NCBI RefSeq assembly: GCF_048128805.1 | Contig: NC_136003.1 | Span: forward strand, 26,410,885-26,474,884 | Origin: Centroberyx gerrardi | Lineage: Eukaryota > Chordata > Actinopteri > Beryciformes > Berycidae | Direction: 5' to 3' | DNA: 64,000 bases | Shown: piece by piece, positions 6,501-53,500 of the stretch | Position numbering within the stretch: the stretch's first letter is position 1 | Layout: each line of letters starts with the position of its first letter | Position numbers and translations under genes: made by a program | Notes under the pieces: generated by a model | The model's database searches: none | The model's input: the letters and a program-made list of their open reading frames with translations, nothing else | What the model was told of the DNA's origin: nothing

Positions 6501-8629
6501 CAGAGTTCATATTAATACCACCCATGTGTTATGTGAAGACAAGTATGATGACATTGATTTTTTTGCTAATCAATACAGTAATTAGGTTATTAATAACCTT
6601 GTTAGCATAACTAGTTATGTGTAATATGTCATGGTGATTATAGTGGGACATTAGGCAGCTCAAGTGCCTCTTGTTGTCAGATTCCTTAATTTGCAGTCGC
6701 CCAGTTGCCTTTGTGTAATTTTCTACATGCATCAACAGGATACTCAGTGGGCTCCAGATGATAATTTCAATGTAAGTAGTCAACATGATTTTAAACTACA
6801 ATAGTTCACATTTTATACTCCATGATTCTCATATTTTCAAGTATTTAATGAATTGCTGTTCTATAATTTCCACAGGTAGAGTGTGAAGATCCTGAAAAGT
6901 TAATAGAGGTACGACTACAGACTGAGCAGTCATTTAACATATTGGCCCCGGTTTAATGCAACAGACCGATATTAATTACAAACAAATGCAGTTGGGACAA
7001 TTCATGCCATCACATGTTATATTCCTACATGATCTGATGTTTTACCCTCAGGTGAAAGAGCCTTGGCAGTGGCTTGGTCTGGACGTCAGAGGGCCGTTTC
7101 CCCCGACACAGAACGGGCACAAATACATTCTGACTGTGACAGATTACTACTCCAAGTGGGTGGAGGCTCTCCCGATGCAGCTGTGCCTCGCCTCACAAGT
7201 GGCTGAGCATGTCACGGACATCATCTCCCACTTCGGCTATCCTGTCAGAATCCTCTCCCGACTGCCTCATGACATCGTCCACAAAGTGAGCTCTTACTGT
7301 CCTACGATGCACATCATCATTTACAATACTGCGTTCTCTTAATATTGATCCAAAGTGGCCAGTATCTCACATGGATCTACTGTGTGAATGTGTCCTTATG
7401 CTAGATCAACAGAGAGCTGAAAGATCAGCTGAAGGTCAACATCTCTCTTGTCGTCCATCATCAGCAGACTGGCACCGCGGATTTGATCACACAACACTTG
7501 ATTGACAGGTCTCTGATTTTAGTTCATGACAGTTTGGGTTCTTAAAGGTGCTGTGTGTAGCTTTTTTAAACATCAATATTTCTTTGTCACATTAATTGTG
7601 ATGCCTTGGTATAATTACTATAAACAAATGAGACCATGGTTGAGACGATTGGTAGCCTCTATCTCACACCAGTGATATTGTTAGTGATAGTGTTTCTCAA
7701 AATTAAGACTACATCTCCCATAAACCCTGTTGCTTCCTGTCACAAAGAGGATTTTGCTTCCTGCCCTCTCCGTCCCTGGCGTTGCTCTGGGTGCGTTTGT
7801 TTTCTCTCTGTCTTTACTGAAGAGGATAAACATGTTGAAAGCCTTACACTCTGAAAGTTTTAGCTCAGTTTGTGCTGCAAACTGAGCTAAAACTTTTGTT
7901 CTGTAAAGCAATCCAGCTTGTCTTCTTGGCGATGGTCTTGTTTGTTTACAGTAATTATAATAATGTCTCAAAATTAATGTGGTAATGATTTATTGATGTT
8001 AAAGGAAAAATCCACCCTTGAGTACTCTTACACTGTTATATATCATCAATTTGTAAAGCTCATTGCATTCCAGGAGTTATTTTGTGTTTTATTTACTTTT
8101 TTGGTGAACCCGCTTTCCCAGAAGTTGCCCAGAAATACAAGGTGCATCACCAATAGCTGACTTTTAACAGTGTTAAAGTGTAGGGTGGATTTTTCCTCAA
8201 AAATGCTACACATATCACCTTTAAAGACTCCTATAACTGAAAATTACCATGGTATATATATGCCAAGCCTGCATGTGAACACTAAAGCTTCTGTCACCGA
8301 TGCTTCCCAACAGGATGATAAGCGATCTGATAGAGCAGCATGCGGCCGACTGGGACGTCTTCCTCCCCGCCAAGGTGTTCAGCCTGTGCTTCAAAGAGCA
8401 TTCACAGACCAAGGAGAGGCCTTTCTCAATGCTCTGCTGCAAGGGACTTCAGCCTGTCCAAGCCCCCAGAGGACTGAATGTAAGTTCATCATCGGACGTG
8501 ATTCTAACACTGTCTCAGGTTTTGAATAAAAATGAATGAAATAAAATAAAACGACCCTTCTGTTCTCACCCCTCTGTCCCACAGTATGCTTACTCCAAGA
8601 TCCGGGAGAGCGCTTTTGTGGTTAGATGA
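3520..8629 (+). CDS. THAP zinc finger fused to a decayed Gypsy/GIN-type integrase core
   Basis: Eleven exons (3520-3587, 4746-4947, 5217-5249, 5637-5758, 6136-6238, 6739-6771, 6876-6908, 7052-7285, 7405-7508, 8314-8479, 8585-8629) join in frame to about 380 residues. Residues 1-90 are a complete C2CH THAP domain: C6, C11, C53, H56, the invariant P25 and W35, and the terminal AVPTIF motif. Such domains bind specific DNA, so a nuclear protein is likely. Residues 100-198 are a Pro/Ala/Ser-rich acidic linker spread over small exons. Residues 199-366 match a retroelement integrase core: LGLDVRGPFP, NGHKYILTVTDYYSKWVEAL and DWDVFLP are recognisable. The first catalytic Asp is kept (about D209), but the SDQG motif reads SRLP and the expected Glu helix reads GTADLITQ, so catalysis is unlikely. 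The many host-type introns indicate a domesticated gene. I do not know an established symbol; a GIN-family relative is possible. Start chosen because the ATG is immediately followed by the THAP Cys pair. Confidence 0.8.
7854..7896. repeat. Perfect 19-bp hairpin
   Basis: The arm at 7854-7872 is the exact reverse complement of 7878-7896, separated by a 5-nt loop. It sits inside the miniature element at 7542-8224. Confidence 0.85.
8003..8197. repeat. Nested inverted-repeat element
   Basis: AGGAAAAATCCACCCT at 8003-8018 is matched exactly by its complement ending at 8197. This 195-bp unit lies inside the larger element at 7542-8224, so one miniature element appears inserted in another, or the larger one carries sub-terminal repeats. 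Confidence 0.55.
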
Positions 8630-14971: not shown

Positions 14972-17732
14972 AGGGGAAGGAGGAAAAAAGAAGAGGGAAG
15001 CATGGGGGAGGGGGAGGGGGAGGGGGGGGGGGGGTCAGAGGGAGGACACACACACACACACGGGAGGGAGGGGTTGACTTATGGGAAGTGATGCCTCGGC
15101 GGGTGAGTTTTACCGACGACAGATCCTCAGCTGGGCAGAAAACAATTACAAACGTGGATTCCCCTTGTTGTAAATGGGAGGATGGGTGGTAAAGGAGGGG
15201 GGAGGGGGGGGGGGGGTTCACACTCGCGCATTTATCCTGAAATAGGTGAACGCATGCTAGATAAATCGATAAATTCACACGAGACCCCGAAGAGATACCT
15301 GACGGATTTGTCACGACACTGTCAGTCATCCATGGGATTGGTAAAGGCTGAGCGTAAAAGAATCGTACCTCCTTATTTAATTCATTCTAGTCTTTATTTA
15401 GAGTAAGGTTATTGTCGCCTTACTTTGTGTTTTTATTATTTTTGCGGGCTTAAACGGGGGGCGGGGGGGGAGTCAGTCGTCGAGGCGTGACTTTTTTTTT
15501 AGGCTTTTTATGTTTGTGTGTTTTCTTTATTAAAATATTAGGATTTAACATTTTTATGGTCTCTGGCCTGGTTGTATGTGTTGCGACAGTAGCTAGGAGT
15601 TTGTGGATTTGTACGTTACTATTCTATTTAGAGAACATGTGCATGAGGAGAATCCAGAAAATAAAGTGGATTCACTTTGCTGGCAGGAGAATCATCTAAA
15701 GTGGGATTATGCACACAGCGGAGGATCTGGCTTCGAGATTGAACGTTTGTTGGTACTTTTTTCCTTTCATGCCTGTAGGTTTAGTTTCTTAGCGGCTCAC
15801 AGAAGTTACTGAGATGTGATTTGTTGGTTTTTTCCCCGGACACAGGCGAGGACCCGACGTCGAAAATGAAATGACTGACCCGCGTAGCAGCCATTGAAAA
15901 TGGCTGTGAAGCGGTTCTGGTTTATTTTACCTTACTAACAAATACGGGAGGCAAACCAACTTTCCTCTGCAACATCTGATTGGAGCTCATGAGATCTTGG
16001 AGGTTTCCATGACATCTTGTTGGCTCCAATCAGTGGACCTAATATGTTTTAGTGGGTATAATCAGTTAGTTATAAGTTCAACAGGTAGTTCGTTGTGTGA
16101 TGAGTTGTGGAGCTGTGCCTGTGATTGGGGGGCGACACATTTCCCCCCCCCCCTTCCCCCTGAATCACTGTCCATTTACTTCCTGCTGCAACTTGTGTTG
16201 TATTATCCCCCCTGAATATCTTAATAGGCATTCTTTTGTTTTCCTAAAACCAAAGGAGAATTGGAAATGAACATCTTCTGTACATTTGAAATTTTGAAGT
16301 AAAGCATATAGTTGGATTTCCAGATCTAGAAATCTTTTATTAAAAACAAAAAAAATCCTCCATTGGAATGTGATTACGTCAATACATGGCAAGGATTTTC
16401 TGTCTTGGGGGGTTAAATGAAATTGTTGACATTAAGGCATAACAAAAAATATTTGCAAATTGTGGCTGTTTAAAAAACGGGACTTGATTAAAGCTGCACT
16501 TGTAACTGACTTGAGTTAACATTAAAACAACTGTTTGTTTTTCATCCCTGTGAACTGTGGTCTTTTGTACACTAAACGGTCAGTGGCAACGTACTGAGAC
16601 ACTGGTATTGATTCTTTTTGCTGCATACTCAAACTCAGTTTGTCATCAAATGAGGAATACAAGGCACAAGTAGACTCAGCTATAGATTTGTCATTATTTG
16701 CTCACACTACTAAATATGGAGAAATAGCAGTTATTATGCCCCTGTTGTGCCTATATACATTGGTACAGTGCTGAATGAGTTCATGGCTGCACAGCTGATA
16801 ACATGTATATGCCTTGAGCTAGTACAGTAGTTCATGACTGAAACTTTACTGTTTTATTCTTCAGGCTGGTGAGATTGGTCTTGATCAGGATGTTCAGGGT
16901 GGGTGCGCTCGTTTTGTAGCTCAGGTAGTCGGCAGCCAAAAAGTAACGGAACTTAAGGTGGAGCATCATAACCATGGGTGTATTATCAGTAAACGACGAA
17001 TTTACAGGTTGGCTAATGCTGCCTTCAGGTACTCCTCGTAATTCCACTATTCCCATAAGTCGTAATAGCAGCGCATTCAAGTGCTATTGGTCGGAAATAA
17101 CACAGTGGACCCCTGGCTGTGACAAAAGTAGTTTTAGTAGTAGAAGAGGGGAAATGCGCTTTAGGAATGTTGATGAAGTTTATTAGGCAAAACTTTTATT
17201 TGCACTGGTAAGTAGACCTGTTAATGTCAACATATTGTAGTTATTAGGACAACTTATAAGTACGGGCAAAGATGTGTGACAACTAAAAGTAATCCAAAGA
17301 GTGGAAAAATAAACTTGTAACAGTAATCATTTCGAGTGCCAAATGAGAATTTACGACAAACAACATAAGTACATCACTTTTGCCATCAATTATGGACATG
17401 ACTTCCATGCTGGCAGGCCCTAAATGTAACATCTCGGCAACTTGGTTACCACAGCAAACTTTATATCCCATCATTGTAATATTCCTCAGTCGTTTTTTAT
17501 GTGCAGCCCAGTTTTCTCCGAGATTTCCGACAACACTTGAAGGCAGCATACGTTAGCTAGCCAGCTAGCTCACTGGATTAGCCGTTTGCCAGCAACGATA
17601 ATGGTTGTTCGTCGGGTGCTAGCCACAACTGGTCCGGCTAGCCGCTCTTCCCTGCAGCTAATGTACAGATAACAACGACTTCTGGTCTGACACATCGACC
17701 GAGAGTATCTGGGTCGTCCAGCAGCAGGAGAG
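14972..17732 (+). other. elob 3' UTR and gene-free spacer
   Basis: The first part contains G-rich and CA runs (15000-15062, 15195-15217, 15458-15471) and the likely elob 3' UTR, with an AATAAA at 15660-15665. Beyond about 16500 I see no gene with confidence. One 82-codon minus-strand reading frame at 16832-17080 is open but unrecognised. Confidence 0.4.
15660..15665 (+). terminator. elob: Candidate elob polyadenylation signal
   Basis: AATAAA about 690 nt after the elob stop. It is the first canonical hexamer found downstream on this strand, but use is not shown. Confidence 0.45.
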
Positions 17733-19159
17733 ATGGATATCAGGGAGCATGTTTTATCGGCAGGCAGAGCCGTGCTGGACATGGTGGAGCGGGAGTGGGA
17801 GCCGCTGTCTCAGGGCGAGCTGGAGCAGCGACTGGACCAGGCGGTTGAAGAGATACTGGAGGCAGACCTGATAGCCAAAGTTAAAGCTCAGCCTCCTGCT
17901 ACTATATACGTACAACTGGTACAGACTCAAGCTCATGTGGAGCCACAGGTTTTATCCACAGAAGCAACAACATCCAGTCCCGTTGAGGAGGAGACGGCAG
18001 GGGCCCAAGAGCCTCCGGACACTGTGGATAGTGCTGCAGTCAAGGTGAGTCCTATACACGGCATATTGTCCATCTTAACAAGCCAGTCAGTCTTGTGTTG
18101 AGTCTCAAAATCTTAGTTGACTTTAGAGAAGAACATCTGCAAACGGGGCTGAGATGATTTCACTTTCATTTCAATGTTATTCTCGACTCAAGAGTCATTT
18201 TCTTGGTACTAATATAGTGATATCTGCCTTGTTTTGGTTTCTCTCAAGATACTGACATTCTTTATTGGAAATTCCTACAATGAAACTGCATTGGAAGCAA
18301 GTGAGATTTTCTCTGCCCCAAAGGCATAATTTTCACTTCACTGAAGATTTTAAGACAGAAAATTAGACTAAATGACTTAGAATTACATATTTTGCAGTGT
18401 ATAGTCAACCAGCCCACAGTTTCTGCAGGTGTATGATCACTTTCACCTGAAATAACCAATTGAATCCACGGACTGACTCTGGATACCGCTCTTTTGACTA
18501 GGGCTGCAACTAACGATTATTTTCATTGTCGATGAATCTGTCGATTATTTTCTCGATTAATCGATTAGTTGTTTGGTCTATAAAATGTCAGAAAATGGTG
18601 AAAAATGTCGATCAGTGTTTCCCAAAGCCCAAGATGACGTCCTCAAATGTCTTGTTTTGTCCACAACCCAAAGATATTCAGTTTACTGTCATAGAGGAGT
18701 AAAGAAACCAGAAAATATTCACATTGAAGAAGCTGGAATCAGAGAATTGTAACTTATTTTTCTTAAAAAATTACTCAACCCGATTAATCGATTATCAAAA
18801 TAGTTGGCGATTAATTTAATAGTTGACAACTAATCGATCAATCGTTGCAGCTCTACTTTTGACACACACATCTCTTTCATCTCGTCTTACTATCCCATCA
18901 GTACATCACAGACCTGCTCCAGAACTCCAAATCGCATTACAACAGGGCTCGGCTGGCCGGACGGGCTCGCTTATCCCTGTCCCACACGGTCCTGCTGTCC
19001 CTCACCCTGCTCTCCAAGCGCATCAGCTACCGCTCTGTGTCGACCCGTTTCCGCCTGGAGAAGGGAAACATCCACAGGATCTTCTTCTCTTTCTGCGAGC
19101 GCGTCAACATGCTGGAGGAGGAGCAAATCAGATGGCCAGTGGGTGGGTTGATTTCCGTG

Positions 19160-19194
<35 letters not shown>

Positions 19195-20057
19195 GGGGGG
19201 GGGGTTCAGTGGGATGAAGAAGCCAGACAGACAGTATATACCTGTCAGTCCAAAGGCAACAGGTTGTGGGTAAATAAGAGTCTACAAATGATAATGTTGA
19301 GTTTTCTCTGTCTGTCTCTCTCCTTTCTCCAGACAGAGAGGCAGTAGAAGCCCTGTTCCCCCTTTCCAGTCTGCTGGGAAAAGCCGAGGATCTGGAAGAA
19401 CAGGGCATCCCGCAGGTCCTGGGAGTCTTGGGCCACACCCGCATCCCCATCCGCCTGCCGATAGGGAAGCACGACGTGGAGAGCACGGTGCCCGAGGTGA
19501 AGAGGATGAAGAAGGAGGCCCATCCCGACTCCTGGCTGAACCTGGAGCTCGTCTGCGACCGGAGAGGCCGGTTCCTGCACTGCAGGATCAGTAAGGGATC
19601 GGACGCGGGCAGAGGCGGCGCTCTGAGGGACAAACTCCGGCAGCGTCCCGAACTGCTGCCGCCCGGCTCCTGCCTGGTGGCCGGAGCCGGATACCCGCTC
19701 ACCGCTCAGATTTTAACTCCGCATGCCGGGAGTCACGGCCCGAGGGAGAATCTGTACAACAAGACGCTGGAGGTGCATTTTAACATCCTGGATCAGGCTG
19801 TTGCTAACCTGAAAGCCAGATTTCAAAGGCTCAGGTATCTGGATATTGGGAATTATGAGCGAGCCAGAGCGGTTGTGTTGACTGCCTGTGTATTGCACAA
19901 TGTGTTTCTGGACATGGGGCAAGAGGTTCAGGGAGAAGTGGAGAAAGAGGAAGTCACGACCGAGGAGGCTGAGGGGGAGGAAGAGGAGGAGGGCGTAAGC
20001 AGACGGGACGCCATCTCACAGCTGTTGTATAAAGACTTTGATTCTGCAAGGACATGA
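17733..20057 (+). CDS. HARBI1-like Harbinger transposase-derived protein, DDE triad lost
   Basis: Three exons (17733-18044, 18902-19142, 19333-20057) join in frame to about 425 residues. HARBI1 is about 350, so this protein carries extra terminal sequence. Residues 1-104 form a charged N-terminus (VEREWEPLSQGELEQRLDQ) not seen in HARBI1. Residues 105-184 resemble the HARBI1 helical DNA-binding region (YRSVSTRFRLEKGNIHRIFF, then QIRWPV). Residues 185-370 match the DDE_Tnp_4 nuclease fold: GVLGHTRIPIRLP, NLELVCDRRGRF, LVAGAGYPL, LKARFQRLRYLDI and ACVLHNVFL. Aligned by eye to HARBI1, the three catalytic positions read G218, G302 and D338 in place of D, D and E. The fold is intact and the frame open, so a non-enzymatic DNA-binding or adaptor role is inferred. 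The C-terminus is a Glu-rich tail. The convergent neighbour encodes a Myb/SANT protein, the usual Harbinger partner. Start chosen as the first ATG of the open exon. Confidence 0.85.
18230..18400. repeat. CACTGCAAAA-type miniature element, partial copy
   Basis: The right end reads ATTTTGCAGTGT (GCAGTG at 18394-18399), like the element at 48753-49118, and the interior is similar. The left end is not clear. It lies in intron 1 of the HARBI1-like gene. Confidence 0.4.
18499..18855. mobile_element. hAT-type miniature element with 8-bp target duplication
   Basis: The 357-bp element starts TAGGGCTGCAACTAACGATT and ends with the complementary GTTGCAGCTCTA. It is flanked by an exact 8-bp direct repeat CTTTTGAC (18491-18498 and 18856-18863), the target-site length of hAT transposons. 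It has no coding capacity. It is inserted just before exon 2 of the HARBI1-like gene. Confidence 0.9.
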
Positions 20058-20186
20058 TGTGATGATGATGGAGGTGGTGATGAGGGACAAGGGCTGTTGT
20101 ACAGTTTGTGTTCACAGAAGTAAATGAAAAATTTTTTATTATAAAATTTCATTTATTTAAACAGAATCTCTAACTTACTGGGTATG

Positions 20187-20267
<81 letters not shown>

Positions 20268-21582
20268 CACTGATCACTGTGATCAGGTTAAAATGATGGC
20301 TTGATTATTAAAGCATTTACATTGTTTGAAGACACACAGGTTTCCCCAGTAACTTTAGTTTATATGGATTTATTGAAAGTCGGGTTAGTTTACTCAGAGA
20401 AGGATGTGATGTAATGACATCCAGCCTGCAGACATCTTGATTTAAAATGAAAAATGTTGGAAGATTTCTTTTCTTCTTTCATTTGGGTCAGCATGCACAG
20501 AGTTGTGCAGTTGCTCCATAAAGGTTGGCTTGTGCCTCAATCTCTGAAAGAAACCCCACTGCTGCAACCAGGCTGACTTCCTCTTTGGCCTTTTTGACAT
20601 TTGGCAAAGGGCTTGCAGACATTTAAAAAAACAGAATTAAATCAGACCAAATACATTTTAAGATTGATCACAAATTTAGTTGTGTTAACTGGGTTACGCT
20701 TACATCAATTATGACTTTACTCTGATTAAGATAATCAGACCAAGACATTTACATGACATGCAATATCATGCATAGAATGAATCAGCGATACTCAAAGTCA
20801 AACCTACAGGCGACTTCACAACCAGTTAGATTTCAAAGTGGCCCTTGGAAGCACGTCGGTGTAAACAGATTTCCTTGGCCTCAATTACTTTTGCATATTA
20901 ACCAAAAGTGCAACTGCATTATACAATTATTTATTCCCAAAACTACAGGATCAACCTCTTGCATAGGTTTTCTTTAAAAACAGGCTGAAGAAGCAGATTA
21001 ATATAAAACTTTTTTTTAATTTTTTGATTCACTAACACCGAAACCTATGTTTCTTTGAAACAGGTTGGAAGCAGAGCTTGATGGGTATGGATGTTATTTA
21101 ACCAGTGACTGGTGCAGTGGTGGTGGATGTCTGCATTAATATATTACCTGTGTGTAACTTCAGCTTTTCTTACCCCTACACCTCAAGCAAACACTCCACT
21201 TTTCCATTATGGTAGAAAAAATGGGTGCTAACTGCGAACATTGAAAGATTGACAGCAAAAAAAAAAAAAAAACTATTTTATCAACTGGCATTTGAACTGT
21301 ATTTTAATGTGTCTTCATATGAAAAAATGTGAAATATGACTTCTCTCTGGTACCTGTTGCAGTTCAGCAGGTCCTTATTGTAATGCAATCTAATTTTGTG
21401 TTCAGCTCTTAAAAAATTCAAACTGGACGAACTATTCTGGAAACTGTAACAGTGCAAAAGTGCCGAGCTCAAACCAGAAACTTCCATTCGAAACACATTC
21501 AAACTATCATCATCATGCAGTGTCATAAAAGTTTGTCATCTTTGAAAGAGGGAAAACCCCCAAATGGCAGCTCAGAGTTGCG
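20058..21582. other. Convergent 3' spacer between the HARBI1-like and Myb-like genes
   Basis: This stretch holds the 3' ends of two genes that face each other. It contains a CA microsatellite at 20191-20266 and an A-run near 21257-21272. ATTAAA at about 20307 could end the plus-strand transcript. No terminal inverted repeats of a Harbinger element were found here. Confidence 0.45.
20191..20266. repeat. CA microsatellite
   Basis: An uninterrupted CA run of 76 bases in the 3' region of the HARBI1-like gene. Confidence 0.98.
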
Positions 21583-22618
21583 TTAATGTCCGTCCTTTGC
21601 CAGCTGTGCACTGTTCTTTTGAGCCAGGCTGGAGATGGCCTGTGCCAGGTTGTTGATGGCCTCGATCTTCCTCTCCTCCAGTGCCTTCTGCTGCGCCCAC
21701 ATGTTCATCTTCCTCTCCTGCAGCTCCATGTACAGCTGCAGGACGTCCTGCGGCGGACGGGCGGTGCAGGGGGCGGCGGCGGTCAGAGGGGGCGTGGGGA
21801 GGATGGGGGTGAACCTCTTGCTGGCTATGGCCTTGCCCAGTTTGGTGCCGCTGAGCTTGGCCCTGCGCTGCGCCTCGATCTCCTCCCGGCTCTTGCCCAG
21901 GACCTCGTGCATGGCCTTGAAGAACTCCCAGTGCACGCTGCCCGCCCCCAGCCTCTTGGCCCGCTCTGCGTTCTTCCTGTACGTGGCCAGCATGTTCCTC
22001 CACTTCAGGTCACACTCGTACGCCTTGACGGTGACATCGGTGACCCCCGACTCCCTCAGCTTGATGTTCACCTTCTCTGCCACCATCTCCCAAAGTTTCT
22101 TTTTCTTGCATACTGGCTGGTCAAAAGCCTGGTCCATTTCAAGGCGGGTGTTGACGAGGTGCCATGTGGCCTGCAGAGTCCATACAAACTCTGGAGAGAA
22201 GAAAACAAAGGTGGATCATGTCAGTTGATTGATTAATTGATGGAACAACACGTAGCCTAGCTCTAAACATGAATTGTTTTTTTTAGTTGTTTTTTTTTTA
22301 AAGTTTGACCACTTGACACAGCCTATGTTTAATGAAAATCATATTTGTAGTGATGCCAGATTACATATAGTTATTATTCATATATGACTGACATCGTAAT
22401 AGCTTGTTATGACTCTCATGAACGCAACAAGGCACCGTCTCGCCTCTGATCATGAACTCATCAAGCCCTCCTCGCATGCGATGACCGGATGAAATCTGGT
22501 TAACTTCACACTGGACGCACTAACCTGCTTTTGTCTTTTCGGCGTCCAGATTGGACACCACAGTTTCATTTTCCTCCACTTCAACACTTTCTGTCACAAT
22601 AGTCTCGATTACCTCCAT
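21583..22618 (-). CDS. Myb/SANT-like (trihelix) DNA-binding protein, Harbinger-partner type
   Basis: Two exons on the minus strand, 22618-22525 and 22190-21583, join in phase 1 to 233 residues. Residues 1-31 are an acidic N-terminus. Residues about 33-115 form a Myb/SANT or trihelix fold: FVWTLQATWHLVNTRLEM, then KKKKLWEMVAEKVN, then ECDLKWRNMLATYRKNAER, with the tryptophans expected on the helices, and SVHWEFFKAMHEVLG. A basic segment follows (AQRRAKLSGTKLGKAIASKR), then a Pro/Ala linker. The last 60 residues are a predicted coiled coil (ELQERKMNMWAQQKALEERK onward). This layout is that of the second protein of PIF/Harbinger transposons and its domesticated relatives such as NAIF1, which bind DNA and bring the transposase protein into the nucleus. 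I infer partnership with the convergent HARBI1-like protein. Start chosen at the ATG of a short upstream exon with a good donor; an internal ATG (MDQAFDQ) is the alternative. Confidence 0.8.
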
Positions 22619-23577
22619 GCTGTTCAACTGCGGCGGCGGTTACAAGTTGTTTGTTTTTATGAGTGCTGAATCTATCGTAGAATTTAACAACCTCTCTGCG
22701 GCACCGATGGATTTTTCCGCATCAAGTAAAACGATGATTATAACAACTTCACTCGGCAGCTCGGGGAATGTAGTTCTTTTCGGTTATTACAAACGTGGGG
22801 TTGTGTGTTTTGTTGTGCCGACTGAACTACAATCCCTGAACCATGCGATTTACTAGAAGCGCGGTGACATTTCTCACTCTCACGGGGCTTGTAGTTTTTT
22901 AAGGGGAGAAATTGCACCGCGAGATTAGACCCGGCAGTGCAATTTAAACTACAAATCCCACGATAAATCTAACCGACCCACCCCTTCACGCCCTGCTCCC
23001 TCCCCCGACCGCCTCCCTGTTTTGTTGCTTGGCTAAAGATGGCGTTAGCGGCTAACCAAGGCGATTGCTTTTTGTTTCATAAAATTTATTCGGCCATTGG
23101 TATCAAAACATTGGTCAAATAGAGCTTTAATTCTTCCTTTGAAGTGCAAAAATATACTACATCGAACAAATGCACCTCCATTATGTAGAATAACGCTTGT
23201 TCGGCCTTCTCACTATGTAGGCCTGTTTTCGTAGGGAGTGGACCGAAGCGATTGGAACTCCATCTCCCATCAGCACTAGCGAGTGTGGCGTCAGGTGGTA
23301 CAATTTTTCATTTTCATGCTGGTATCTGTAGTTTTCTGACCAGTAATTTCAGTTTTGTGGAAACTTTGAAACAAAAACATGCGAATGAAACCAGTACGAG
23401 GACGTTTCAACCCAATGTTGAATACTTGAACATTTAAAAAAAGACAACAACATTCTAGTTAATTTCTCTGTACTTCATTGTAAGCCTGCTATGATGCTCC
23501 ACGGTGTCTGTAAGTGTCTGAAGTGACAAGAGGAAACGTAAGATAAGTGAAGCCGGTGTTTGCCAGGCAGTGAGACC
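22619..23577. promoter_or_regulatory. Divergent promoter region, Myb-like gene (-) and armc5 (+)
   Basis: About 960 bases separate the two divergent starts. The central part (22900-23060) is GC-richer, with no TATA box seen, and could serve both genes. No further coding exon is visible. Confidence 0.4.
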
Positions 23578-26500
23578 ATGGCAGCAGCACCTGTGCAAGG
23601 TAACTGGAAACAGACTCGAGGTCCAGCTCCATGCAGAGACGGATCCTCATCAGCACCAGAGTCGTCGCTGACCTGGTGCCTGTCTCACCTCTCCAAACCC
23701 GGCTCAGCGGCCGAGGACCGGGGTAACGGCAGGGCGGACTCGGGCGGCGGCAGGGAACTGGACAAGAGGTCCAGAGCTGCCCAGTGGCGAGCGCTGGTCG
23801 CCATCCGGACGCAGCACATCAAGGGCGGCAGCGCTGGCATCGCCCGGTTCAGAGGTCAGGGCGGACTTCAGCCGCTCCTGGACCTGCTGAGGTACCCCGA
23901 CTGCTCCAGGAAGACCCTGGACCTGGCTCTCAGCATCCTGGCCAACTGCTGCACCGAGTTGGAGACGCGCACAGAGGTGAGGTGAAGGGAGGCTGGGGGG
24001 GGGGGGGGGGGGGGGGGGGTGTTGACAGCTGCATTCTTAAATCAGCTGAGGGGGGGACTCGAGTCACATGACTTGGACTCGAGTCAGACTTGAGTCACGA
24101 TTTGAATTGCTTGTGACTTGATGCGTGAAGAGAAGACTTGAGACTTGACCTGGGTTCTGGTGACTTGGGACTTGACTTTGATGACTTGAAAAGGTTTCTA
24201 AAGTCTTGACAAAAGATCTTGTGTTTGTGTAAATGACTTAGATTGAAAGTTGTGAGATTTGTTCCACCACACTGAATTTAAATTCTGTTTTCTGAATTTG
24301 TGTGCAATGATGGAATTTATTGAAGTTGAAACTGATTATAGAAATCAAACTCATGATGCTCTTACCAAGTTTTTATCCTATTAAAACCATATTGCATTGA
24401 AAAGTCCTAGATATTTTGTTTTCTTTAAGATATTAAATTGATACTGGACTCTTGATTTGTTCAGACTTGACTTGCTGTTCTACTTTTAGACTCGAGACTT
24501 GTGCCTCAAGACTTGAGACTAACTTGGGACTAAAGCCAAGTTGACTTGGTCACACCTCTGTAAATCAGCCATTAAAATCGCTAACTTTTAAAATGTCTTC
24601 CATTTTAGGTTCGCAAGCTTGATGGCATAACTATTGTGGGTAAGTCAAAACACAAATGGTTATGGAGAATTTGTTCTCTTGGATCAGTTTTAGCATAAAT
24701 AATCCACTTTTTAAACTTTTTATTATTTTGAGGTGCAATCATTTCTGTCATCGCTGATATTTTTCAGAACAATAACAACATAAACATGAGCAAATATATT
24801 GTATAAGCCAGTGTACTTCACAGACATGCAATCCTTAACATTTTTCTTGCCTTTCTCAGTGGACATCCTGAAGAGAAACGTAGCCATGGAGACCGTTCAG
24901 AACAGAGCGGCCCGGGCGTTGGGAAACCTGGCCATGGATCCAGAGAATTCAGCCCTCATCCACTCTGCTGGTACGTCTGACAAGATCGATGTCAATATGC
25001 CTCACTGCATCATTTTCAGCTGGAAGTTCAGTTTATAAGATGTGATACAACTTTATTGCTATTACGGGAAATTGTGTCGTTGCAGCAGCAAAGAATAGGA
25101 TAAGATTGACAATACGTATTCATCATATTAATATTGAGTTACTGTTGGCTAGAAAGAATAATCACTATGTTTGCCGTTGACAGATTTACAGATGTTTGCA
25201 GCTAAATATTTACAGGTTTACAGTCCAGAGCAAGAGCATATATGCAGGATATGCATCTTAAGTATTCACATTTTCAGATTTACAGGGCCGATGTGCAAAT
25301 GATGATGATGAAATAACATATTATGTATAGAAATGTGCCCAGAAGCAACATTAGCTATTCACATCATTACCATATTTACAGATGGAGGGAACATGTGCAG
25401 AAATGTGTCCAGAAGTGCAAATGTGCATTGTTCGCTATTCATTGTTAGCTCTTCATATGACCAGATCTATGTATGGAGGTAACGTTATGTAAAGAAATGT
25501 GTCCAGAAACATGTGCTTATGTACTGGAAAATGTTATTGGAGAAATACAGTGTTTGTCATTGTGCTCTTTTCTCAGTGATGGATTATTACTCTTTTTCTC
25601 TCTTTTTTTCTTTAATACAGGTGGTGTTCCCCCTCTCCTCCTCTGTGTGTCTCTTTCCTCTGCCCCGTCCTCGCCCACCGCTGCTCCGACCAAAGCCCCC
25701 TGTCCCAAAATGGAGTGCGCTCAGTCCGCTGCCCGGGCCCTCCTCTACCTCTCGGACACGCCCTCCAACCGCCTGTTGCTGCTCACCCAAGGCACCTTAC
25801 CTGCCCTCGCCCCTCTCATCGCCCCAGAATACCCCCAGGGCCTGCGGCGGGTGGCCCTCAGGACCCTCCACGAGCTCAGCCGGGGCTGCGGGGTCGAATG
25901 CGCCAGGGAGGTGTCCCGTTCTGGAGTCCTCGCTCAGCTCGGCGTCATGGCGTCGGGGGAGTCCGGCAAACCTTTTGAAGAGCTGGCGCTGAAAACCCTG
26001 GCCAACATGTGCTCCCAAGGGTGCCTGCGCCCTCTGGTGGGGCCGCTGGGGGTCATTCAGAAATTCGCCGAGGAGGTCAAGAGGGACCCGCTGAAGTCCG
26101 GAGTGTTCCTCAAAGCGCTCTGCTTGTGTTGCAAGGAAGCGGTGAACCGGGCGAAGGTGAAGGAGAGCGGCGGATTAGAGGCGCTGATTGGCTTTTTGGC
26201 CGCACATCAGAGTCACCCCCTTTCCCGGCTAGCCATTCTGGCCTGCGTCGACTTCGTTTATGATGAATCTGCCATGGAGCAGTTGCAAGAGTTAGGGCTG
26301 GTCCCTCTGCTTGTCGGCCGACTAGTCGAGCTCGCCAAAGGGGAGGAGCCATCTGCTGAGAAGATGGACGTGAGCCTCGCCTCCAGCGTGTCTCCCACCG
26401 AGCTCCTGCCCTCGTCCTGGTTTGATTCCTTTGACTTTCCCCCTCCTGAAGGGTGCAGGAAGGAGGAAGCTGGTAAAGAGCAAGGCCTTGGTTCATCCAG

Positions 26501-29500
26501 CTTTCTAAGTCTCAGGTATGTACAACCAAACACAGCTTTCTTGTGTATCTATTTTAACTGTGGATGATTTGTTTATTATACTATTCTCTATTCTAAATCT
26601 GCAAATCTCTCTCTCCAGGTCCTGGCTGGTGTCTGAGGGACTGATCTCCTCCGAGGGGGACCTGCTGGACTCCTCAGGCGGAGTGGAGGGCGACTGGGGG
26701 AGTCTTCAGATCCCGCCTTCTTCATCCCCTCAGACCCCCTCCCCAAACCCCGATTCTCATTCCTCTCTGAAAAGCTGCTCTCCTTCCCACCCTATCGCCT
26801 CCTCCGCTTCCAAACATGTAGCTCAGCCCGGCCCTGTTTCCTCTTCATCCCAGCCCCAGCTGTTTCTGTCTCCATGTAAAAACGTGGATCCGCCTCCCTC
26901 CCATCCTCAGCCATCCGGTGCGCTCACACCTCAAATCCAGCTCAGCTCTCCCCCGGCTCTCTCCTCCCCCACTAAAACTCCCCAAACGCCCATCTCCCCG
27001 TCGAAGTTCTCGTCCCCTCACAGGAAGAGGCCACGGGTTCATCCGGCGGCTCGCTTGACTAAGGTCACTCTTGACACCCCTCCCTCGGCGCCCCGACCCA
27101 CGGCCTACCACCCCTACCACCCTGAGCCCTGGACGCCCGAGTCGCCCATCCTGCTGCTGCTGTCGCGCTTCTCCCACGCCACCGACCCCAGTGCCGCTCT
27201 GGTCAACTCGGGCGTCGTCTCCGGCCTGCTCTTCTACCTCACCCAGCACCAAGACCCCAGCAGCAGGTGCTTCCGCATGCTGTGCCGACTGAGCTGCAAC
27301 CCCAACTGTCTGCAGGCGCTGGTCCGAACCGGCTCGGTGGCGCTGATTCGCCACCGTCTCTGCCAGAGAGAGCGCCGGATGAAGAGAGAAGAGAGGCAGA
27401 CGGACCGAGTGAAAGCTAAAGTCAAACAGCTTGGTAAGATGAAGGTTCTTAGGCCTAAAACCCTCTGAGCAAAATCACTGTAAAGCAATTGAAAGAGAAT
27501 GCAAATGTTTAAAAGAGAGAGCAAATGTTTAATGAATTTTTAATGTTAATTGATAATTAAATCATTATTAAATGTTATTCTTCTGCCAAGCAATATATTT
27601 CTTGACCATTAGCTAAACAAAATGGTTGCTAAGTGGCACATAAGCACAAGTGTGGTGACTACATTGAGCAGTGGTGACTTCTGGGTAGCGAATTAATATT
27701 TAAACTGTTATTCAGTCACAAGTGTGTTTTATACATTGCAATATTATTAATATTTAAAATAACAGCTATGCAGTCACAGGTGTGCAGTTATCAGGAATTT
27801 TACAACAGCTTCGAACATAACTCAGCCAATCAGAACTAAACAATTTATAATTACATACAACATCTGGCCCATTTCATTGTATCCAAGAGCCATTTTTACA
27901 ACAGTCTTCTGTCTGTTTGTCCCTGTAGGTCTTACTCTTCTCAGTAATCTGCGTGTGCAGTGTGAGTCTGGGTTTGGCTCTGGGGTTTTGGCCCACGTGA
28001 TGCTGTCCGGCTCCGAGTCTGACAAGATGAACTGTGCTCTTTCTCTGCCGCTGATCAGCAGGTGAGTAGCAGCGTCGCCTCAGTGGGAAGAACAATACAT
28101 GAAAGATACATGGATGTGAGCTCAGTGGTAATCACAAGTCAAAATTCAGGGTCTCAGAAGTCCTTGAACACTGTTAAATGCAGCTTTTAAGTCAGTTCAG
28201 TTTTAGAGGTCTTAAAAATGTCGCTTCTTGTTTTGCTGTTTTTCTGGTGAGAAATCAGCCCAGTCATGGAGACTTTTTTGATAGAAAAATGTTTTCTTTC
28301 ATTTTCACATTCAGTTAAGCAGTGAAATTAGTCTTATATTTCCTTCTGCCATTAAAAGTCTTAGATCTAACTTTATGAAACTTGCAGACATCCTGTAATA
28401 ATGCACAGACAGTTTGCAAAGTTAATTACTTGTTGAAATAAGCATTGGACTGAGGATTTGGTATATTCATCAAGGTGCTTGACTTGACACGTCTTTTTCT
28501 CCCACAGCAACAAGTCCCTGTTGAAGAAACTTCTTCTGGACAACGGTGGGCTGCTCTTGGCTCTGCAGCCCCTGGGCTGCGACGAGGACGACGCTGAGGA
28601 CGACCACACTGTCGAATGTGGAAGGCTGCTCTCCGACTGGTTTAATTCACCACATTTAGACCCGACCTCCCAGCTGCACTCGCTGTACTTTTCTCTCTTG
28701 ATTGGATGCCTGTCTAGCCTGATGGGTGGCGCCAAAACGGAGCTCGACAAAAAACACCTCAGTCCGGTCAAAACACATTCAGTCAGTTCGCCCCCTCCCT
28801 TGAAAAAGCCTCGCCTATCCGATCTCTGTCCTTACCGCGACTCGAACTTTGACCTCATCTTCCTGCTGGACGACGGGACCCGGGTCTCGGCCAACAGGGA
28901 AGCGGTGGCTGGTGCGGAGGGGACGGACGGGGTCGGCTCTGAATACTTCAGGGCTTTGTTGAGGGGCGGGTTTGGAGAAGCGCAGGGCAGCGCAGGAGGA
29001 GCCATCCCCATCAAGGACGTCAGCAGAGGCATGCTGCTGCCGGTGCTGCATTACCTGCATGGCTGCCGCTTCACCAAGGACACAGAAACCACAGAGGAAC
29101 AGGATGGAGACACCGGGGTTAGGATCGGAGGACAGTGTCAGCTTTTAGGATCATTGGCCCTTGAAGGACTGGGCAGCCGCCGACAGGAGACGGAGGAGCA
29201 CTTCACGGAGGAACTGGCTTTCCAGAAAACACCTTTAGGTGAGATGATGATCGGATCGTGCAGATTCCTGGTGACTGAGCTGCAGAGGGAGGCGGAGGAT
29301 CTCTGCGTGTCTCTTCTCCTGTCCCATTCTACCAAGGCCGCTAGTCGAGCTGCAGCGGCTCCCGCAGAGGAGAGCACGGAAAGGGCCCCGTCTAAAATGG
29401 ACCAAGAATGCCTGGAGGGGGAGTCTGCCGACGAGAGCCTGGCTAATCGAACATCTGAGTTGGAGCTGAGTGGTGTTGAAGCGCAGGCAGAATACTTACC

Positions 29501-30032
29501 CGGACGGACGGAGAAACCAAACAATCCTGTAGCTATTTCCCCACACCAAACAGACAGTAAACAACCCCCTATCTCTGGACCAGTCCGAAAGATCAACAAG
29601 GCACTTAATACAACTTCGGACCTGAAGACAATCACAGGCGGCACTCCAGTTTCCAAATCTCGGTGTGCATCAATCATGGACAAATCATCACATCCAGGAG
29701 AGTCGAAGCTAAGACCAAAGAACTTGACGGAAAGCTCAGGACAGCCGTTGAAATCAGCTGCTCAGGACTGCCTCTCCGGTTCAGAAGCCGGTGCTGGAGG
29801 TTGGGCCCCGGCCGCTCTCCTCCCCCAGGTTTACTGGTTTTCCCAGCGGTACAGCTACCCAGCGCTGGGCAAGGCCTGCCTGTCTCTCCTGCTGGGGTGT
29901 CAGGACTCTCCTCGACTGTTCTCCTCCTCCTCCTCTGCTGGGGATTGCCTTCGCAGACTGGCCAGAGAGGCCGACTGTACGGAGACTCTGAAACGGGATC
30001 TACTAAGTCTGGCCAAAGTCGCTGTCAGCTGA
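23578..30032 (+). CDS. armc5: Armadillo repeat-containing protein 5
   Basis: ARMC5 is a substrate adaptor of a CUL3 ubiquitin ligase that targets RNA polymerase II subunits, and in human is an adrenal tumour suppressor. Seven exons (23578-23976, 24609-24639, 24860-24970, 25621-26515, 26619-27433, 27929-28061, 28508-30032) join in frame to about 1302 residues; the human protein is 935. Residues about 80-450 are armadillo repeats (GGLQPLLDLLRYPDCSRKTL, ILANCCTELETR, NRAARALGNLAMDPENSALI, AARALLYLSDT, LKTLANMCSQGCLRPLVGPL). Residues about 500-640 are a Ser/Pro-rich linker, followed by more armadillo-like sequence (GVVSGLLFYLTQHQDPSSRC). A BTB domain follows at about 905-990 (FDLIFLLDDGTRVSANREA, YFRALLRGGF, LLPVLHYLHGC), interrupted later by a long polar insert before the conserved C-terminus (PQVYWFSQRYSYPALGKACL). 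The start is the ATG at 23578; an in-frame TTG lies 18 nt upstream. Human ARMC5 is also near RUSF1 and COX6A2. Confidence 0.95.
23995..24019. repeat. Poly-G run
   Basis: About 25 consecutive G in armc5 intron 1, directly before a dispersed repeat. Such runs are prone to length error in assemblies. Confidence 0.9.
24050..24560. repeat. Dispersed hAT-like repeat with GACTTGAGAC words
   Basis: The stretch is dense in ACTTGA, GACTCGAGTC and GACTTGGGAC variants and ends GGTCACACCTCTG, a frequent teleost repeat terminus. The matching CAGAGGTG start is missing, probably lost at the poly-G run. It lies in armc5 intron 1. Confidence 0.55.
25060..25525. repeat. Degenerate dispersed repeat (AAATGTGTCCAGA family), copy 1
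   Basis: Words such as GAAATGTGTCCAGAA, GTGCAAATGTGCATTGTT and TTTACAGATGGAGG recur here several times and again at 45115-45560. The family is unidentified. It lies in armc5 intron 3. Confidence 0.55.
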
Positions 30033-50500: not shown

Positions 50501-53500
50501 TGTGTTGTTGATCTACATAGAAGCACTGGTATCTCTGGGCCATCTAGAAGTCATGATGAATGCATGATGATATTTCTCTGCCAGGTGTGTCTGCAGCAGA
50601 TTTGGGTGGATCTGCGAGGGCCACTCTGGGCCAAGGTGTTCAGGATCTAAACGGAGTGAAAAGCAGAGCGCTCGGTACTCCTGCTGGAAGAGGAGTCAAA
50701 ACTCTCGGACCTGTAATGCCTGGAGTGATGGGTGTACCTTCTTCTGGAATACAGGTCAAAAGTCTTGATCCAGTGGTTAGGTCACAGGGGGCAACAAGTC
50801 TTGGACCCACGATACCTGTTGATAAACAGAGCAAGAGTCTTGGTCTCGCTGTTTCAGCAGCACAGGGAGGAGAAAATTACGCTCCTGCTGTCTCGCGAAG
50901 TACGGGAGCCGCAAGCTATGGAGCCACACAAGGAGCTGTAAGTCTGAGACCGCAGATGCCTGTTGGTGAAGACAACAGCAGAAGTCTGGGTCCTGCCTCT
51001 ACTCAAGTACAGGGTTCCAGAGGCTATGGATCATCTGTTCAACAGAATCAGGGAGCCCAAAACTATGGACATGCCAGTGATGTGTCAGATGGAACCGATA
51101 TGAAATACCTTGGGTTTTTGGCTTCAGAAGCACAGAGGGCTCAAAGTTTAGGGCCTCAGGTAGCTGCTGGTAAGGAGAGCAAACGTCTTGCGACACCACA
51201 AGTACAGGGACACAAAAACTATCGACTGCCTCAAGGTGCCAGAAGCTACGGATTCTCTCTTTCACACAGTCAGGGAACCAGAAACTATTTATCTGCTGTA
51301 TCAGATGTGCAGGGAGTCAGAGACCTTCGGCCTGTGGCTGCAGAGACACATGGGCTGAGAAGCCTTGGGCCTCAGGTGCCTGTTGGTCAAGAAAGCCGCA
51401 GTCTCGGTCACGCAACTCTTCAACCACAGGGCGTCGAAAGTTATGGACCAGTGACACCAGATGGAAAGGGAACCAAGAGTTTAGGCACTTTCTCAGCAGG
51501 AGGACAGCCATCTAAAGGCTACGTTCCTTATGGACCGGAAGCAAGAAGCCTTTCCCATGCTGAACCTGATGTCACAGGGTCACAAAGTCTCGGCCTCCTA
51601 ATGCAGAATGGGAAGAATACCCAGGCAGCAAATAAGGGTAAAGTTTTGACTTTTCTTTCCCATCTGAAGGTCTTTGTTTATTTCACGATTGTCATGTTTG
51701 GGGAGAGATGTGTTGTCTCATTCCATAGTCCACTCTGGAGACTTATATTTGTCTCATTACTTTCACTCTCCATCTGTTATCCCACTGTCTGTTTACAATT
51801 GGGATGAAGATCATTTTTGTTTGCCTCTTAATTTGTCTTCCTCAATGTCTTTGCAAAGTGACCTCTCTTTGTATGCAGCACATACAAATCAGTGTTTTCA
51901 CGAGACACCTCTGAGGTATCTATTTGTTTTCTGTCTTGCTTTTATAGAGCTTCTAACTAATAAGTCCCAGTTTTATGGAAGTTGATCCTCTGCGTGACGG
52001 CACCTGTCTTAACTCTGTAACCCAAAAATACTGACATTGCTTGGATCTATGATCCTGCAATGTTTAATTTGGTTAACTTGCTTATTTGTATGGATTGATA
52101 TGTATAGGTTTAATGACTTTTATGTTTTTTATATACAGTATATAATCAGCTGATTATCTGATTAAAGTACAGTATCTGACTGCATGTGGGTGACATTTAG
52201 GAAGTAGTGATGGAGCAGGATCCCCCATTGATCGAGATGTTAAAAGCAATGGTAAAATGTCCAGCTGCATTCCTGTCTGTCGTTAGCCTTGTGTTTAGCT
52301 TTTTGTGTATTTGTCTCTACATCCGTCTGTGTCTTGGGATCTATCAAGCATTTCTGTGGTTATCGAGTACATGCTGCTGTGCCATGGATCATGTCATCCA
52401 TCAGCACATCAATCCACATACTAATTTCAGCTTCTACTCATAAAACAATCCTAGGTTTATCTTATTAGAGCCTGGGTCACAGTTTAAAGCAAAACACTGT
52501 GTTACATTGCTGGTGTATTCTTTTCCATGTATCTGTTGTACCTGGGACAACACAACATGGGTGTCGATGTGCTCCAGATGTTTTCTGCATGACACTGCAT
52601 GTTTCAATCCAACATTTCCAGAAACATTAGGATTAGATTTAAATATGTAATCCTTTAAAGGATTATAGTTGCTATATTGTGCACAGCACAGCCATTACCA
52701 ATGTGCATTCATTTTGTCACTCTATTATCTCACTTTGTGAAACTACAGCTCATTTTCACACCTTAATAATCACTGTTGTGGTCTGCAGGATTTGTCCCCG
52801 GAGCTGGCGGTGTTCCCTACGGACAGGGTCCTAATAGCAATGGTAAACCTCCATTTTCCAACATCTCAATGTCTGGATCTGTCAAATTTAAACTGTGTAG
52901 CAGGAAGGTGGGATAAATGCTAAACGTGAGTCAAGAACACATGTAGTTTGAGATAAAGTTTTTGAGTAACTGCCATCATGGTGGCTCCCACATTTCATTA
53001 GATTACATTACATTACATTATGCCATTTAGCAGACGCTTTTGTCCAAATTTCTTATACAGACGCAGTTAGCACTCTTTCAGCTGAGCCACTGACTAATCA
53101 CTGTTGTGGTCTCCAGGATTTGCGAACGGAGCTGGAGTGACCAGCGGTGCTAGAAACGGTAAAGCCTCTGCCTGGATGTGTGCTGTGCTTGGCATGCTGA
53201 ATGGTGTCCTTGTGTAGTTTCCCCTTTGCATGGATGGAGAATCACAACAGTCATCCAGACCTAATCATTATGAGGATGAAGCCTCGGACAGATCGTTAAT
53301 GAGAGCAGTAATCAGTGTTCTGGTCTCTAGGATATGGTCCAGTGAATGGAGCTCCTAATGGAGGAGGGGTCAACGGTAAACGGCTACCTGCATGTCTCTC
53401 TCTGTGTCTGTGCTGGTGCATATGAAACTGTTTGGATGTTATAAATCAACTAAACCACACTTTTTAAATGATACATATGATTAAAACACTCTGGCATGAC

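Follow-up and report, generated by a model that had tools for sequence, protein, structure and literature searches.

The fish Centroberyx gerrardi carries a convergent pair of neighboring genes, one for a PIF/Harbinger-type nuclease-fold protein and one for a Myb/SANT trihelix protein. On balance, we think it probable that a single old PIF/Harbinger element gave the host both of its genes, which have remained neighbors and encode a dead nuclease-fold protein and a DNA-binding Myb protein. The pair lies in the window, that is, the whole 64,000-nucleotide stretch analysed here (C7:26410885-26474884 of a 779-Mb genome in 278 contigs).

Results

The first-pass annotation had described a Harbinger-type nuclease-fold gene on the forward strand beside a Myb/SANT gene on the reverse strand, both intact and with introns. 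Our gene models, built from the genomic sequence alone, agree with this description. Each frame stops only at its final stop codon, all introns are of the GT-AG type, and the two stop codons face each other tail to tail at a distance of 1,525 bp. The exon 2/3 junction of the HARBI-like gene was picked by frame, with 19339 and 19342 as the other frame-keeping acceptors. In Pfam, residues 252-374 of the HARBI-like protein matched DDE_Tnp_4 (E 5.5e-8; 33 bits against a cut-off of 24.8), and a DDE_Tnp_4 match above the cut-off is the mark of a PIF/Harbinger-derived nuclease. Residues 34-128 of the Myb protein matched Myb_DNA-bind_4 (E 2.9e-12), and its match to MADF was weak (E 1.4e-4). The Myb protein combines the trihelix, its three core tryptophans and a long predicted C-terminal helix, the features by which a PIF/Harbinger Myb-like protein is recognized.

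Table 1 Features of the locus (positions in the window).
Feature	Position	Strand	Remarks
HARBI-like gene	17733..20057	+	DDE_Tnp_4 gene, 425 aa, three exons
HARBI-like exon 1 (residues 1-104)	17733..18044	+	open frame, GT-AG
357-bp insertion in HARBI-like intron 1	18499..18855		inverted ends, 8-bp target duplication CTTTTGAC
HARBI-like exon 2 (residues 105-184)	18902..19142	+	open frame
HARBI-like exon 3 and stop codon	19333..20057	+	DDE_Tnp_4; G218, G302, D338
Myb/SANT trihelix gene	22618..21583	-	233 aa, two exons
Myb/SANT exon 2 and stop codon	21583..22190	-	trihelix domain, Trp35, Trp65, Trp95, long predicted C-terminal helix
Myb/SANT exon 1	22525..22618	-	gene model
CpG-rich stretch	22250..23249		observed/expected 0.99-1.05
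ARMC5, 5' part (first exon from 23578)	23578..26564	+	PF24768

The active site of the HARBI-like protein was examined in an alignment of 17 proteins, in which glycine, glycine and aspartate occupy its catalytic D/D/E positions. The triad is present in 13 of the other 16 proteins, human HARBI1 included. The three exceptions have D at the third position (this fish's harbi1 and the element L028) or N at the first (L027). Since the change from E to D is conservative and common to harbi1 and L028, only the first two positions are clear losses, and the earlier claim that the catalytic residues are lost holds for these two. HARBI1 keeps the first two aspartates in this fish and in human, in contrast to the glycines of the window protein. 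The intact DDE triad of an active PIF/Harbinger transposon is replaced here by G/G/D. The nuclease is very probably dead and, judging from these residues, presumably does not cut DNA.

Other comparisons added little. When the PDB was searched by phmmer with the HARBI-like protein, a single hit came up (E 0.4), whose name suggests no relationship. An AlphaFold model of exon 3 was uninformative (mean pLDDT 38.9), and scans of viral and prokaryote contigs found no relatives of exon 3. The alignment to Harbinger transposases begins at residue 133, in exon 2, and we read the aligned part of this exon as resembling a helix-turn-helix. The only match of exon 1 in its own genome was exon 1 itself.

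Copy number was assessed by searching both proteins against the 779-Mb genome. The HARBI-like protein gave 24 matches with E up to 0.01, three of which are its own exons; the top-scoring of the remaining 21 is 29% identical, and none among the matches listed exceeds 30%. The Myb protein gave three matches, its own two exons and C16:2019164-2019577 (L034; 26% identical, E 7e-4), which sits in a 239-aa Myb ORF with a convergent DDE ORF beside it. Among the best-scoring candidates of each search, a second copy of either gene was not found, so the multiple similar copies typical of an active PIF/Harbinger transposon are missing here. Many near-identical copies would have pointed to a recent multi-copy transposon, as the first-pass annotation noted, and on the candidates scored this explanation was rejected. 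Both genes are single copy in these searches, open in frame and adjacent, the combination by which a co-domesticated pair is recognized.

The absence of terminal inverted repeats (TIRs) and target duplications around the pair, noted earlier, was reproduced by self-BLAST with 3-kb flanks and by an ungapped scan. The sole spanning inverted match in the self-BLAST was a 13-mer, GTGGAGCATCATA (16958-16970 / 23490-23502), which was rejected as a chance match because of its E value of 1.5 and the lack of a duplicated flank. The ungapped scan, for inverted 14-mers with up to 2 mismatches, returned 84 pairs against 2-20 in five crude shuffles; 59 were left after a complexity filter. Runs of C/G at 16143-16147 and 24005-24019 made up most of the 40 pairs shown and were set aside. 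Equal 3-bp flanks were found in 0 of the 59 filtered pairs. The searches thus gave no TIR with the 3-bp duplication of an active PIF/Harbinger element, short or worn TIRs being of a kind that could escape detection.

As a positive control, self-comparison was applied to 12 related loci, and in 8 of them the DDE frame turned out to be flanked by inverted repeats of 22-38 nt. One family, made up of L019, L020, L021, L022 and L026, has repeats of 36-37 nt; those of L024 and L025 measure 22 nt and those of L028 38 nt. L023 has inverted repeats of 103 nt, and none were found around the DDE frame in L027, L029 and L030. Four of the five family copies checked carry 3-bp duplications (aaa, ata, tgt, cta), and L021 has none. 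The self-BLAST as applied to the window found no convincing TIR at L034, L050 or L051. L051 does contain an inverted duplication, 1,272 nt long, but of a different kind. Since these three loci also lack a convincing TIR, its absence at the window is compatible with plain age, and a missing TIR does not discriminate strongly between host genes and an old element.

We compared the order of DDE and Myb neighbors across the genome, using 150 scored of 311 Myb_4 candidates as Myb places and 150 of 155 matches plus 46 hand-picked ones as DDE places. A DDE place lay within 6 kb of 8 of the 150 Myb places, whereas uniform placement, a simple null for transposons, which cluster, predicts 0.45. Seven of these eight close pairs, the window pair among them, are convergent and one is divergent. 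When 43 DDE places were added and 14 of the 150 Myb places re-checked, 7 more pairs appeared, all convergent, which brings the running total to at least 15 DDE-Myb pairs, 14 of them convergent including the window pair. Tail to tail is the usual order of DDE-Myb neighbors in this genome. It is not universal, since the HARBI1-like element L035 has a Myb-like ORF (identity read from the translation) in divergent order. Living elements, too, have the tail-to-tail order.

In a tree of the 17 proteins, the window HARBI-like protein stood on a branch 2.63 changes per column long, and no sister to it was supported. It grouped with the 14 other Harbinger-type rows at 100/100, against two rows that we read as ISL2EU-type, its long branch notwithstanding. 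A clade with HARBI1 was rejected by the AU test (p 0.0098 with 17 rows, 0.0142 with 16 rows without L034), again with a long branch. The test did not reject the L034 transposase (p 0.241) or the L020/L024 group (p 0.228) as sister of the window protein. The long branches make these kinship results soft.

The two genes were also considered as orthologues of harbi1 and naif1. The fish's harbi1 is located elsewhere, at C21:17938284-17940758, with exons 53-76% identical to the human HARBI1 sequence; together with the AU p of about 0.01 against grouping with HARBI1, this led us to reject the first assignment. Its naif1 is at C2:29764609-29768125, 60-76% identical over three stretches to the NAIF1 query. 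The second assignment was rejected because the window Myb is absent among the 53 matches listed for this query; the naif1 locus is likewise absent among the window Myb's 3 genome matches. The harbi1 and naif1 loci of this genome are unlinked.

The surroundings of the pair were inspected for signs of host genes. The 357-bp insertion, which we read as a hAT-like MITE, is nested inside intron 1 of the HARBI-like gene, so the intron is older than the insertion. A CpG-rich stretch, measured in three overlapping 500-bp segments, lies between the starts of the Myb gene and of ARMC5 (window mean 0.47), and from this arrangement the two genes may share a promoter. ARMC5 adjoins the pair, with PF24768 on 2 of 6 ORFs (177 bits on one; 32 bits over 24 residues on the other, short of the 79.9 cut-off), and probably extends beyond 26564; an ORF downstream of its 5' part (28488-30029) had no Pfam match. 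Our literature search found no paper joining ARMC5 with HARBI1. Third-position GC is 0.69 and 0.79 in the two pair genes, 0.74 and 0.78 in two ARMC5 pieces, 0.62 in the downstream ORF taken for ARMC5, and 0.32-0.63 (mean 0.53) in 17 transposase ORFs, which weakly favors host-gene status.

Discussion

In living Harbinger elements, the Myb protein binds the element ends and enters the nucleus with the transposase (PMC9179366, PMC9710019). Three domesticated pairs retain the contact, mostly from the nuclease N-terminus to the Myb C-terminus, and for ALP1 neither half alone sufficed (PMC7282668). HDP1 and ALP1 both lack the DDE triad (PMC7282668), and dead-nuclease Harbinger-derived pairs have been published in Arabidopsis (PMC7282668, PMC4671723). 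HDP1/HDP2 is like the window pair in joining a DDE-less nuclease-derived protein to a tryptophan-keeping Myb partner, and both an interaction and a histone acetyltransferase complex have been reported for it (PMC7282668, PMC9710019); unlike the window pair, these are plant genes, and their origin is independent. ALP1/ALP2 likewise combines a nuclease-derived protein that has lost two of three triad residues with a Myb-derived partner, but ALP2 is described as lacking the tryptophans, is not adjacent to ALP1 and is a PRC2 component (PMC7282668, PMC4671723).

Since the window pair has the anatomy of domesticated pairs, we infer a DNA-bound Myb protein that carries a dead nuclease-fold adaptor. 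The Myb protein would bind DNA through its trihelix, its C-terminal helix would hold the nuclease-fold protein, and the pair would serve as a nuclear adaptor, either regulatory or chromatin-related; by analogy with HDP1/HDP2, an adaptor on a DNA-binding Myb is probably what the dead nuclease has become. The map of the contact may not carry over from known pairs, as ALP1 needs more than either half (PMC7282668).

An old dead Harbinger copy might have remained undecayed, either because its frames stayed open by chance or because it is a fairly recent insertion of a family otherwise lost from the genome. The element-like layout fits such a copy, and other pairs without a clear TIR exist, L050 among them also with two open frames. 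We nevertheless regard it as unlikely, because two active-site positions are lost and yet 425 and 233 codons are open, because the matches listed hold no kin more than 30% identical, and because introns are present, one with a nested insertion. In a neutral simulation with substitutions alone and no indels, moreover, 0 of 400 HARBI-length frames were open at 0.2 changes per site.

Only one of the two genes might be a host gene and the other a passenger, or they might come from different source elements and be together by accident. Their best matches do fall in different families, L019-L022 for the HARBI-like protein and L034 for the Myb protein, though the identities are too low for a decision. 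On the other side, close DDE-Myb neighbors far exceed the chance expectation among the 150 Myb places, the convergent order fits one element and both frames are open, and we find such an origin quite improbable. That the nuclease-fold protein still works as an enzyme through an altered active site is very hard to credit: the third position does remain acidic, which is also true of harbi1 in this fish, but the first and second aspartates are both glycine, and in rice Ping a single triad change already cuts transposition drastically (PMC4671723).

Co-domestication of the two genes of one element remains our preferred reading. Weighing against it are the tail-to-tail order and missing TIRs, which old or living elements can also show, the low identity (26%) of the Myb protein's nearest relative, and the mere non-rejection of that element's transposase as sister of the HARBI-like protein. 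A fuller version, which we advance tentatively and at somewhat less than even odds, would make the pair a linked vertebrate co-domestication independent of HARBI1/NAIF1 and an animal counterpart of HDP1/HDP2, with a nuclease that has turned into a dead adaptor and carries an added N-terminal exon, and a Myb gene sharing its promoter region with ARMC5. Human HARBI1 and NAIF1 interact (PMC9710019); their counterparts here differ from the window pair in lying unlinked at other loci, on C21 and C2.

The pair had been put forward as a new case, and this claim needs narrowing. Four linked pairs of co-domesticated genes have been described from insects (DPLG7-DPM7, APLG1-APM1, APLG2-APM2 and LPLG2-LPM2, in Drosophila, Anopheles and Lepidoptera; PMC9710019), and dead-nuclease pairs, as noted above, in Arabidopsis. 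The insect pairs are adjacent like the window pair and each derive from one PIF/Harbinger insertion, and those of Anopheles are also single copy, with introns conserved in Anopheles and no TIR or target duplication; they differ in being from insects and in having MADF partner proteins (PMC9710019). Purifying selection is reported for the Anopheles and Lepidoptera pair genes and expression for those of Anopheles (PMC9710019). The novelty would lie in a vertebrate pair that is still linked and whose origin is independent of HARBI1/NAIF1. Among the titles and abstract openings listed in our literature search, and in passages of papers, mostly open access, no linked vertebrate pair was named; annotations may well carry such genes under automatic names. 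If true, the preferred reading would extend co-domesticated Harbinger pairs from plants, insects and the vertebrate HARBI1/NAIF1 to a still-linked vertebrate pair. Because its nuclease is very probably dead, it would offer a clean test of whether hosts keep the two-protein contact rather than the cutting. Fish are experimentally tractable, and function would be directly testable if orthologues exist in laboratory species.

A further fish protein, ADF-1L of miiuy croaker, resembles the window Myb by description in deriving from the Myb/MADF part of PIF/Harbinger; it differs in that the accessible description mentions no nuclease partner (PMC11893794). ADF-1L is reported to recruit KAT2B and to regulate its own and a neighboring gene (PMC11893794).

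Other DDE genes of the Centroberyx gerrardi genome

Besides the pair in the window, a further convergent DDE-Myb pair was identified at locus L050, with both frames open. The D/D/E triad is intact in its DDE protein (row L042 of the 17-protein alignment), and self-BLAST of the locus detected no clear terminal inverted repeat. When the DDE frame was searched against its own genome, the top other match had 46% identity, with up to 60% over shorter stretches at other places. L050 could be another domesticated pair or else an old element.

In the same alignment, Asp occupies the catalytic Glu position of the L028 DDE_Tnp_4 protein, whose sister in the protein tree is the row L041. Since 38-nt inverted repeats flank its frame on both sides, L028 is probably a transposon copy. 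The catalytic Glu is also replaced by Asp in harbi1 of this fish, which reads HEIVDRTF versus HSVIEKTF in human HARBI1.

Positions of the features (G000, this genome; C, contig)
Feature	Position	Strand	Remark
L050 DDE frame	L050:3744-4925 = G000:C6:25793743-25794924	+	open frame, 394 aa
L050 Myb frame	L050:7358-7996 = G000:C6:25797357-25797995	-	open frame, 213 aa
L028 DDE_Tnp_4 frame	L028:4360-5619 = G000:C16:25972859-25974118		open, 420 aa
harbi1 (L038)	G000:C21:17938284-17940758		triad read in alignment
Putative retroelement integrase remnant	window 6938-7339	+	rve match, E 4.5e-4
Open frame, 415 aa	window 50560-51804	+	translation

Other frames in the window

The rve match fell under the Pfam cut-off and may represent a remnant of a retroelement integrase. 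The 415-aa frame had no match in the Pfam search of window ORFs; short near-repeats are abundant in its first part.
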